From: Desulfurobacterium sp. TC5-1
Lineage (GTDB): Bacteria; Aquificota; Aquificia; Desulfurobacteriales; Desulfurobacteriaceae
Length of the DNA stretch: 64,000 nucleotides
Direction: 5' to 3'
Assembly: GCF_000421485.1 (NCBI RefSeq)
Contig: NZ_ATXC01000001.1
Location: 248,001-312,000 of the forward strand
The notes under the pieces were generated by a model that saw nothing but the letters and a program-made list of their open reading frames with translations, did not search any database and was not told the DNA's origin. Within the stretch, counting starts at the first letter, position 1, and the number at the start of each line of letters is the position of its first letter. Positions 60,383-63,160 of the stretch are shown here, piece after piece. Made by a program: the position numbers and the translations under genes.

Positions 60383-60411
60383 AAAAGGGGGGATGCGCCC
60401 CCCCTTTTTTT
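60383..60411. terminator. Bidirectional rho-independent terminator
   Basis: AAAAGGGGGG pairs with CCCCCCTTTT around a 6-base loop, followed by further T residues. The A-tract on the other side gives a T-run on the minus strand too. It lies between the convergent pabB-like and ribbon-helix-helix genes and can serve both. Confidence 0.85.
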
Positions 60412-60437: not shown

Positions 60438-60680
60438 TTATTCTTCTGCTTCTTTTGCTGCTGCTGCTTCTTCCTTTTCTTTTCTTCCAGATTCAAGTAA
60501 CTTAGAGAGATCAGCGATTGTTGAATTATCCAGTCTTTCTTCAATGATGGTTTTGATGAGCTTGTTAAGCTTCATTTCGTTGTTACCGGCAATTCCGTAA
60601 AGAATGTAGTAAGTCTTTTTTGGAAGGGATACCTTTACAGTTTTGTTGGTTCTCTTCCCGGGCTTTCTTCCTCGTGCCAT
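60438..60680 (-). CDS. Ribbon-helix-helix (CopG-like) DNA-binding protein
   Basis: An 80-residue protein. A basic N-terminus (ARGRKPGKRTNK) leads into a strand TVKVSLPKKTYYIL and two helices (YGIAGNNEMKLNKLIKTIIEERLD), the ribbon-helix-helix layout. It ends in an acidic, alanine-rich helix (RKEKEEAAAAKEAEE). Members bind palindromic operators as dimers of dimers. AAGGAGG precedes the ATG. It diverges from the AhbD-like/hemE unit, so it may regulate itself or that unit; a 14-base palindrome lies between them. Target unproven. Confidence 0.7.
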   Translation of the reverse strand: MARGRKPGKRTNKTVKVSLPKKTYYILYGIAGNNEMKLNKLIKTIIEERLDNSTIADLSKLLESGRKEKEEAAAAKEAEE

Positions 60681-60724
60681 ATTTTCCTCCTTAGTTAAAT
60701 TTAATAAAAATTGATTCTCTGCTT

Positions 60725-60752
60725 ATTTTAGCAAAATTTTTCCTCATTGTAA
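60725..60752 (-). promoter_or_regulatory. Putative promoter of the ribbon-helix-helix gene
   Basis: On the minus strand TTACAA (60752-60747) and TAAAAT (60730-60725) with a 16-base spacer, 45 bases before the gene's ATG. Confidence 0.4.
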
Positions 60753-60785
60753 CATTTTTGTGTCTTAAATCAATCTTGTTATGCA

Positions 60786-60799
60786 TAACCGTACGGTTA
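60786..60799. promoter_or_regulatory. 14-base perfect palindrome, candidate operator
   Basis: TAACCGTACGGTTA is a perfect palindrome in the 348-base gap between the divergent ribbon-helix-helix gene and the radical SAM gene, about 34 bases upstream of the former's -35. The rest of the gap is AT-rich with no other structure seen apart from a TATAAT at 60994-60999 before the radical SAM gene. Confidence 0.4.
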
Positions 60800-61028
60800 A
60801 AACATGCTAATGAGTGTAACGTAACGCTTTAGAATAAAATTTCGTATTCTGCATATTTTTAATATAGTGCTTTTAACCTTAACAGTCGAATATTTAAATG
60901 AATTTTTACTAAGTTTCATAGCTATTATTATTTATGTTAGAAGCGTCTTTAAAATCGGGATTTTAAATAGTAATATTTACACTGCACTCTTTATATAATT
61001 GAGATAATTGAGAATTCTGGAGAAAATT

Positions 61029-62126
61029 ATGGGACATGAACAATTCTTGCCGAAATGGATAGCGTGGGAAGTTACAAGGAGATGTAACCTTAATTGTATT
61101 CATTGTCGTTCATCATCCACTATGGAATCTGAGCAGGGTGAGTTTACTTTTGAAGAAGCTAAGAAGCTGATGGATGATATTGCCACCATTTCCAGTCCGA
61201 CTATTGTCCTTACCGGTGGTGAGCCTCTTTTAAGGGATGATCTGTTTGATATTGCTGCCTACGGTACAGAGAAAGGGTTCAGAATGTGCATAGCTACTAA
61301 TGGTGTTCTTGTTGATGACGAAGTTTGTCGTGAAATGAAGAGAACAGGCATAAAAATGGTTTCTCTTTCTCTTGATGGTTCTACCGCAGAGATTCATGAC
61401 GACTTCAGGAAACAACCGGGAGCGTTTGATGGTGTTTTGAACGCCGTTGAACATTTAAGGAAGCATAACATTCCATTCCTCATAAATTCCTCTTTTACAA
61501 AGAGGAACGCCTTTGATATACCTAATGTTTATAAAAAGGCCAGAGAGCTTGGGGCAAGGGCCTGGTACATGTTTTTAGTTCTTCCAGTAGGTAGAGGTGA
61601 AGAAGCAAATACGGAGCTTCTTGATGCGGAAGAGGCAAACTACTGGTTAAACTGGCACTATGAGCTTGAGAAAGATTTAATTTTAAAAGGTGACAACACT
61701 ATTTTGGTTAGGCCTACCTGTGCACCTCACTACTACCGAATTTTCAGGCAGAATGCTAAAAGGGACGGTCTTGATCTTAAAAGGAGAAATCTCGTTTTTG
61801 GGACCGGTGGAGGGAAGGGTTGTGTCGCCGGTCAGTCAATAGCGTTGATAGACTGTCACGGCTGGCTAAAACCGTGTAGCTACTTTCCAATTTCTGACAT
61901 AAACGTTTTTGATGTTCCTTTTAGCAAGGCCTGGTTTGAATCGAAAATCATGCAGGATATGAGAAAGATTGACGAGTTTAAGGGAAGATGTGGGGTTTGT
62001 GAGTATCTTAAAATATGTAACGGTTGTAGAGTGAGGGCTTACTGGAAGTACAACGACTACATGCAGGAAGATCCTGTTTGTGATTACGTTCCTGTAAAAA
62101 TGAGGAAAGAAAGGAGAGATGTATGA
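61029..62126 (+). CDS. Radical SAM/SPASM enzyme, AhbD-like (heme synthesis)
   Basis: A 365-residue radical SAM enzyme. The CX3CX2C site is C19-C23-C26 in [28 protein letters not shown] and [16 protein letters not shown] follow, then VLPVGRGEE. The C-terminal SPASM-like region has cysteines in [39 protein letters not shown] and DPVCDY. These suit one or two auxiliary 4Fe-4S clusters. The pattern matches AhbD, which oxidatively decarboxylates Fe-coproporphyrin III to heme. Overlap with hemE (ATGA) supports a tetrapyrrole role. ATG 61029 has GGAGA 5 bases upstream; an upstream TTG lacks one. Related NirJ-type activity is possible. Confidence 0.8.
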
Positions 62127-63160
62127 AAGATCATCCAATACTTAAAGCGGCAAGAGGAGAGAAAACTGATTACACGCCTGTATGGATTATGCGGCAGGCG
62201 GGTAGGTATTCTGCCAAGTACAGAGAGATAAGGGCAAAGGCCGGTTCATTCATGGATTTGTGTAGAAATCCCGAACTTGCGGCTGAGGTTACTCTTCTTC
62301 CGATAGAGGAGATAGGCGTTGATGCCGCTATTCTCTTTTCCGATATCTTTGTTCCTGTTGAAAAGATGGGAATAAATATTGAATTTGTTTCGGGAAAAGG
62401 CCCCGTTTTGTCTCCGGTTGTTAGAACAGTGGAGGATGTAAAAAATCTCAGTATTCCCGTGCCTGAAGATGACCTTAGTTATGTTCTTGAGACCATAAAA
62501 ATTATAAAAGATCGTTTGACAGATAGACCGCTCATAGGGTTTTCCGGTGCTCCTTTTACACTTGCAAGTTATATTCTTGAGGGGGGAACTACAAAAGACT
62601 ACAGGGCTGCCAAAACAACAATGTGGAACAATTCAGAGCTCTGGCAGGCCTTGATGGATAAGCTGACAGTTGTTGTGACGGAATATTTGTCATCTCAAAT
62701 AAAGGCAGGGGTTGATCTTGTTCAGATTTTTGATTCCTGGATGGGGGTTCTTTCTGCTGAGGATTACGAAAAGTACGTTTTCCCTCACACGAAGAAAATA
62801 GTTGATATTCTTAAAGAGAGGCATCCTGATACGCCTATAATCCATTTTGGTGTTAACAGTTCTCATCTTATAGAGATTAATAATCTGTTGGACGTTGATG
62901 TAATAGGTCTTGACTGGAGAACAGAGATTCCGTTTGCCCTTGGTAGAACGGACAAATCAATCCAGGGTAACCTTGATCCTGTAGCTCTGTTTGCGGATGA
63001 AAAAGTTATAGAAGAAAAAGTAAGAAAGATAGTGATAGAAGGCCTCAGGGCAAGAGGGCACATATTTAATTTAGGTCATGGAATCCTTCCACAGACGGAT
63101 CCTAAAAAGGCGAAATTTTTGGTGGAAACTGTCCATAGAATAAGTAGAGAAGTCAGATGA
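62123..63160 (+). CDS. hemE: Uroporphyrinogen decarboxylase
   Basis: Decarboxylates uroporphyrinogen III to coproporphyrinogen III. The 345-residue TIM barrel has [23 protein letters not shown] at the N-terminus (substrate arginines), [14 protein letters not shown] with the catalytic aspartate, [23 protein letters not shown] and [11 protein letters not shown]. It overlaps the AhbD-like gene by four bases. A hairpin terminator starts right after its stop. Confidence 0.97.

Follow-up and report, generated by a model that had tools for sequence, protein, structure and literature searches.

The source organism of the DNA described here is a heat-loving anaerobe, and the radical SAM enzyme AhbD, to which the enzyme described here is related, is known from archaea and sulfate reducers. 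AhbD belongs to the siroheme route of heme synthesis (Methanosarcina barkeri, Desulfovibrio; NCBIfam model TIGR04545). The enzyme of M. barkeri needs the iron of its substrate for efficient quenching of the radical, and coproporphyrin that is metal-free or carries zinc is a very poor substrate (PMC11306076). In the coproporphyrin-dependent (CPD) route (HemE-CgoX-CpfC-ChdC), the last step is carried out by ChdC. HemN/CgdH is another radical SAM enzyme that converts two propionates into vinyls, although it has no SPASM domain, acts on a porphyrinogen, and uses two SAM (PMC10548856), and the AhbD-like enzyme described here comes from an unrelated subfamily. That AhbD can substitute for ChdC at the end of the CPD route is stated in reviews (PMC7242693, PMC10548856 citing Dailey 2015, and PMC12670364), where there is also mention of ahbD in the vicinity of hemY and hemH. 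The logic of those statements, with coproheme decarboxylated by AhbD where there is no ChdC, is the same as that followed below; the passages found are, however, of a single sentence each, and they make no mention of Aquificota, of Geobacter, or of an AhbD clade of its own that excludes HemN.

The two overlapping genes of the present locus are likely to code for the enzymes at the entry and at the exit of a hybrid route to heme b that requires no oxygen. HemE would yield coproporphyrinogen III, which a HemY/CgoX-type FAD oxidase would aromatise to coproporphyrin III. Ferrochelatase would then insert iron to produce coproheme, and the AhbD-like radical SAM/SPASM enzyme, taking the place of ChdC (or that of HemN in the classical route), would convert the propionates of rings A and B of coproheme into vinyls, giving heme b. 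The part of this proposal that assigns a late tetrapyrrole decarboxylation to the AhbD-like enzyme is very probably correct. At the level of sequence, the route is based on the gene set, the absences, co-occurrence, phylogeny, and the cofactor cysteines. It shares with the CPD route the proposed order of intermediates, HemE, a HemY/CgoX-type oxidase, a ferrochelatase, and the pairing of hemH with hemY, whereas ChdC would be replaced by a radical SAM enzyme, the organisms are diderm anaerobes, the oxidase is partly CgoX-like, and the ferrochelatase is PpfC-like. While the idea of AhbD in place of ChdC is already known, what appears to be new is an AhbD clade that is linked to hemE and exclusive of HemN. 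Neither this clade, its exclusion of HemN across Aquificota and Desulfuromonadales, nor its naming in these organisms was found in the literature searched, whose coverage was partial, so that an earlier mention is possible; the same search returned no biochemistry on the clade.

Layout of the ahbD-like and hemE genes

The window, i.e., the whole stretch of DNA that was analysed, comprises 64,000 nucleotides and corresponds to bases 248001-312000 of contig 1 in a genome of 1.65 Mb (four contigs, 99.8% complete). Both main open reading frames, their four-base overlap, the divergent small frame, and the palindrome are located where the first-pass annotation had put them (Table 1).

Table 1. Features of the ahbD-like/hemE locus (positions in the window)
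Feature	Position	Strand	Remarks
GC-rich hairpin with T-runs flanking both sides	60383..60408	.	Terminator scan
Divergent 80-aa basic protein, probable ribbon-helix-helix (RHH) regulator	60438..60680	-	Pfam RHH_4 sub-threshold
Perfect 14-bp palindrome TAACCGTACGGTTA, possible operator	60786..60799	.	In divergent intergenic region
ahbD-like radical SAM/SPASM gene; proposed anaerobic coproheme decarboxylase (heme synthase)	61029..62126	+	365 aa
ATGA stop/start overlap of the ahbD-like gene with hemE	62123..62126	+	Read from sequence
hemE, uroporphyrinogen III decarboxylase	62123..63160	+	TIGR01464 and Pfam URO-D

HemE scores 423 bits with TIGR01464, above the cut-off of 303, and matches Pfam URO-D with an E value of 1e-123. 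The start of the ahbD-like gene is likelier to be the ATG at 61029, which follows CTGGAG, than the TTG at 61008, which would make the protein seven residues longer. The ATGA overlap makes translational coupling of the two genes likely. An overlap of four bases is also found in G008, and the spacing in other relatives extends from overlap to a gap of 33 bp, or includes inserted genes. In some members of the family (loci L078, L084, L161, and L158), one gene, up to 3.9 kb, sits between ahbD and hemE. Additionally, G005, G013, and G019 carry after hemE a gene for 289-297 residues with no assigned role.

On the other side of the ahbD-like gene, the hairpin accounts for five overlapping matches in the terminator scan, compared with 0.5 expected in shuffled sequences, and is likely a terminator separating the upstream gene from the RHH-like gene. 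The match of the 80-residue protein to RHH_4 (E 0.046) is below the curated cut-off. Its gene is found upstream of ahbD in three of the four genomes of the genus (the window genome, G001, and G002), and was not found at ahbD in G003 or in the remaining genomes of the family. The palindrome TAACCGTACGGTTA is present in one copy in the 64 kb, with 0.09 matches expected by chance at two or fewer mismatches. The sequence of G001 aligned to it is TAACCATATGGCTA, in which the inner 8-bp CCGTACGG is changed to CCATATGG; since this two-base change is symmetric, the dyad may persist there. In the aligned upstream region of G002, the palindrome is not kept. As a conserved operator the palindrome was rejected, the exact site being confined to the window genome. 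The local control circuit that had been suggested for the RHH gene and the palindrome thus finds no support outside the genus; the pair would be a genus-level feature at most, to which a role in control can be assigned only weakly.

Relationship of the encoded protein to AhbD

Among the NCBIfam models, TIGR04545 (AhbD) gives the best match to the AhbD-like protein (384 bits, E 6e-115), followed by TIGR04053 (274 bits), NirJ2 (256 bits), NirJ (203 bits), and AhbC (195 bits). The score is lower than the equivalog cut-off of the model, which is 500 bits. With the same model the orthologue in G022 reaches 356 bits, and the hemE-linked members on the side of Desulfobacterota reach about 435-457 bits. 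The average identity of the enzyme to canonical AhbD is only about 40%. In common with AhbD, the protein includes the radical SAM motif CX3CX2C as well as the C-terminal SPASM/Twitch cysteines, and the spacing of the latter eight, CX33CX17CX37CX2CX5CX2CX17C, fits the full SPASM motif of AhbD (PMC10452713). All 11 cluster cysteines are invariant in an alignment of 100 hemE-linked and 41 canonical AhbD sequences. The two groups have 73 conserved positions in common, and of the residues that both conserve, 26 are seldom found in AhbC and NirJ. At several other positions, each clade has a fixed residue of its own, as with Tyr180 of the hemE-linked proteins, which is His in canonical AhbD. The codon of Tyr180 occupies positions 61566-61568 of the window, and this residue may provide a lead to the ligand near the porphyrin iron.

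In a tree calculated by a quick method, with AhbC and NirJ-like sequences as the outgroup and TIGR04053 left out, all hemE-linked proteins, including that of the window, form one clade (SH-aLRT 100) that is sister to AhbD of the siroheme route; AhbD is separated from the NirJ/AhbC outgroup by a branch with weak support (79). The fold of the AlphaFold model (pLDDT 73.7) is that of SPASM-type radical SAM enzymes, the nearest neighbors including PqqE, SkfB, SuiB, and anSME. It is well supported by these sequence comparisons that the protein belongs to a sister clade of AhbD and is not a stray radical SAM enzyme. The resemblance to AhbD noted in the first-pass annotation is upheld by the phylogeny, in which the protein takes its place beside AhbD rather than NirJ or AhbC. 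As to identity with AhbD itself, the full set of cysteines, the best model, and the position of the clade agree with it, whereas the protein is not a member of the TIGR04545 equivalog.

Heme genes in Desulfurobacteriales and other lineages

The survey covered 61 genomes of the class, 24 of them in the order (22 of Desulfurobacteriaceae together with the sister family f2) and 37 in families f3 and f4; G023, one of the two genomes of f2, is only 64% complete. The ahbD-like gene is present in 22/22 genomes of Desulfurobacteriaceae, with 81-95% identity between orthologues, as well as in G022 of the sister family (58%). It was not found in f3 and f4, where the best matches, at ~30-35% identity, are NirJ-like. 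The distribution of HemN is the opposite, with matches above the cut-off in 37/37 genomes of f3 and f4 compared with 0/24 in the order. HemF and ChdC/HemQ (PF06778) were found in none of the 61 genomes, control genomes being positive for the latter, and the AhbA/B-type siroheme decarboxylase (PF17805) in none of the 24 genomes of the order. In f3 and f4, 20/37 genomes have such a decarboxylase with two domains per open reading frame, an arrangement that suggests the heme d1 (NirDL) type. Ferrochelatase is found in 60/61 genomes of the class. The HemY/CgoX-type oxidase (TIGR00562, above the cut-off) is present in all 24 genomes of the order and also in f4, and is replaced by HemJ in f3; HemJ was not found in the order. 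In the window genome, hemY (C1:214358-215716) adjoins hemH (C1:215744-216631) ~32 kb before the start of the window, and the adjacency is retained in nearly all genomes of the family. The order thus has HemE, a porphyrinogen oxidase, and a ferrochelatase and is devoid of HemN and HemF, and this gene content, with neither ChdC nor AhbA/B, is the one that the hybrid route of the first-pass annotation called for.

The presence of HemN under another annotation was rejected, since the sole matches are HemW (269 bits, TIGR00539) and a genus-level protein of the HemN superfamily, NF006385 (C1:1374329-1375666, also L089:9329-10666, 445 aa). Because the latter exceeds the cut-off of the 'coproporphyrinogen III oxidase family' (395 vs 355 bits), it might be thought to carry out the late decarboxylation, leaving some other role to the AhbD-like protein. 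Such an assignment is extremely improbable, given that the protein reaches only ~120 bits with HemN (cut-off 325) and has a CX3CX2CC motif in place of the CX3CX2CXC of HemN, and that most other genomes of the family show one match to the HemN superfamily, of the size of HemW, whereas the AhbD-like gene is universal in the family.

A scan of GTDB genomes returned at least 551 relatives of the AhbD-like protein. The best 80 of these, besides those of Desulfurobacteriaceae, are mostly from Desulfuromonadales/Geobacter (56-61% identity), and a few bear the labels Rokubacteria, Actinomycetota, or deltaproteobacteria; a tblastn search of plasmids gave TIGR04053/NirJ-type relatives and no closer match. 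In 60 of the 66 loci of relatives with enough flanking sequence, the gene immediately downstream, in the same orientation, is hemE; 47 of the 66 include hemH, usually next after hemE. In G125 (L294), the genes ahbD, hemE, hemH, and hemY form a row of four. Neither HemN nor AhbA/B (PF17805) was found in any of 36 genomes with hemE-linked relatives, whereas AhbA/B is present in 10/10 genomes whose AhbD exceeds the 500-bit cut-off. In the phylum of G078, 110/198 genomes have AhbD above the cut-off and a second group scores about 435-460 bits. The members of that group that were inspected are mostly linked to hemE, whereas canonical AhbD is found beside AhbC and AhbA/B. However, the score alone does not sort the two kinds, as proteins of 459-498 bits without a link to hemE occur in G131, G157, G197, G102, G147, and G109. 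Compared with canonical AhbD, the gene described here is thus encoded with hemE, and elsewhere also with hemH or hemY, rather than with ahbA, ahbB, or ahbC, and the genomes are without AhbA/B.

The resemblance of the protein to AhbD, NirJ, and NirJ2, together with a second AhbD/NirJ-like radical SAM pair on contig 2 of the window genome, could also be read as a sign of a siroheme-dependent or heme d1 route, with hemE as a neighbor by chance. There is very little probability in this, as decarboxylases of the AhbA/B/NirD type are absent from all 24 genomes of the order and from the 36 other carriers, the adjacency to hemE recurs in the loci of other lineages, and those loci of canonical ahbD that were inspected show no hemE or hemH nearby. 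The canonical siroheme route was rejected on the same absence of AhbA/B. The pair on contig 2 consists of adjacent genes at about 90300-92620 (L075:8328-10605), coding for 412 and 344 residues with 261 and 166 bits to TIGR04545. It is not accompanied by AhbA/B and, while missing from most of the family, is also found in other members of the genus as well as in G022 and G023.

Porphyrinogen oxidase, ferrochelatase, and the order of steps

The oxidase and the ferrochelatase were examined because both can tell whether iron enters before or after decarboxylation. The roles of residues that distinguish CgoX from PgoX were taken from PMC10740692. In the order as in the other carriers, the oxidases have the PgoX-type residues Arg95, Phe329, and Leu332 and lack Phe227 of CgoX. 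In turn, the CgoX-type residues Arg364 (position in the Bacillus enzyme) and Lys71 are found in 37/38 oxidases from carriers of the AhbD clade, including 24/24 in the order; in the oxidases of HemN-bearing Aquificota of f4, the residue at 364 is Thr or Ser in 17/17. The nearest among the solved structures is PgoX of Myxococcus. In a small tree of oxidases, those of the order group with two Myxococcota-labelled carriers (L169 and L210), away from the Aquificota of f4, and the shared residues are therefore not independent events. This grouping suggests that the heme genes may have travelled together between lineages.

The residues of the ferrochelatase were read against the human enzyme, the five best PDB alignments listed being all human. 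Among the matches listed, those that come nearest to the ferrochelatase are PpfC of human and of yeast, and it has Met76 at the proximal position; the hallmark of CpfC from Firmicutes and Actinobacteria was not found with the human sequence as the reference. The equivalent of human Arg164 is Leu in 22/23 ferrochelatases of the order (L088:9720-10640 and its orthologues), whereas HemN-bearing Aquificota, like nearly all other carriers of the AhbD clade, have Arg there.

Several of these features would be expected if the AhbD-like enzyme had replaced HemN directly, converting coproporphyrinogen III to protoporphyrinogen IX, to be followed by PgoX and then PpfC. In that case, coproporphyrinogen III would have a third class of decarboxylase in the hemE-linked clade, whose members, radical SAM enzymes of the SPASM type, would use the metal-free porphyrinogen as substrate and would have taken over from HemN in Desulfurobacteriales, Geobacter, and their relatives within an otherwise protoporphyrin-dependent route. 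The mutual exclusion of the AhbD-like gene and HemN is exact across the genomes tested, the oxidase keeps the strict PgoX residues and has a PgoX as its nearest solved structure, the ferrochelatase with its Met76 is PpfC-like, and the enzyme lies in a clade of its own, under the AhbD cut-off. Even so, we regard a direct replacement as unlikely. We know of no enzyme of the AhbD family that acts on a porphyrinogen, and the oxidases carry the CgoX-type Arg364 and Lys71. The clade has every SPASM cysteine and 73 positions in common with AhbD, the mechanism of which needs the porphyrin iron (PMC11306076).

Since the M. barkeri enzyme has this requirement, insertion of iron ahead of decarboxylation is favored, and coproheme, rather than coproporphyrinogen III, is the probable substrate of the AhbD-like enzyme. 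For the hybrid route as proposed in the first-pass annotation, the gene set, the absences, and the sister relationship to AhbD speak in its favor, whereas the iron-first order is one that we infer, and the oxidase and ferrochelatase keep many features of the protoporphyrin type.

The cytochromes of Geobacter and its relatives demand heme in very large quantities. The genomes of the Geobacter group that were tested have neither HemN nor the siroheme decarboxylase, and ChdC is also absent from the Aquificota tested. For the late step of heme synthesis left without an enzyme in these anaerobes, the hemE-linked clade is the candidate that suggests itself. The hybrid route would add diderm bacteria to the organisms with a route of the coproporphyrin type, and it provides a short list of testable enzymes, for which the question of the first substrate is directly testable. 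Judged by the TIGR04545 cut-off or by a search for HemN alone, such organisms would seem unable to complete heme.

Among the 14 carriers examined outside Aquificota, the sole exception in the residues at 364 and 71 of the oxidase is the HemY encoded at L163:4020-5450, in a Rokubacteria-labelled MAG, which has Thr and Val at these positions.
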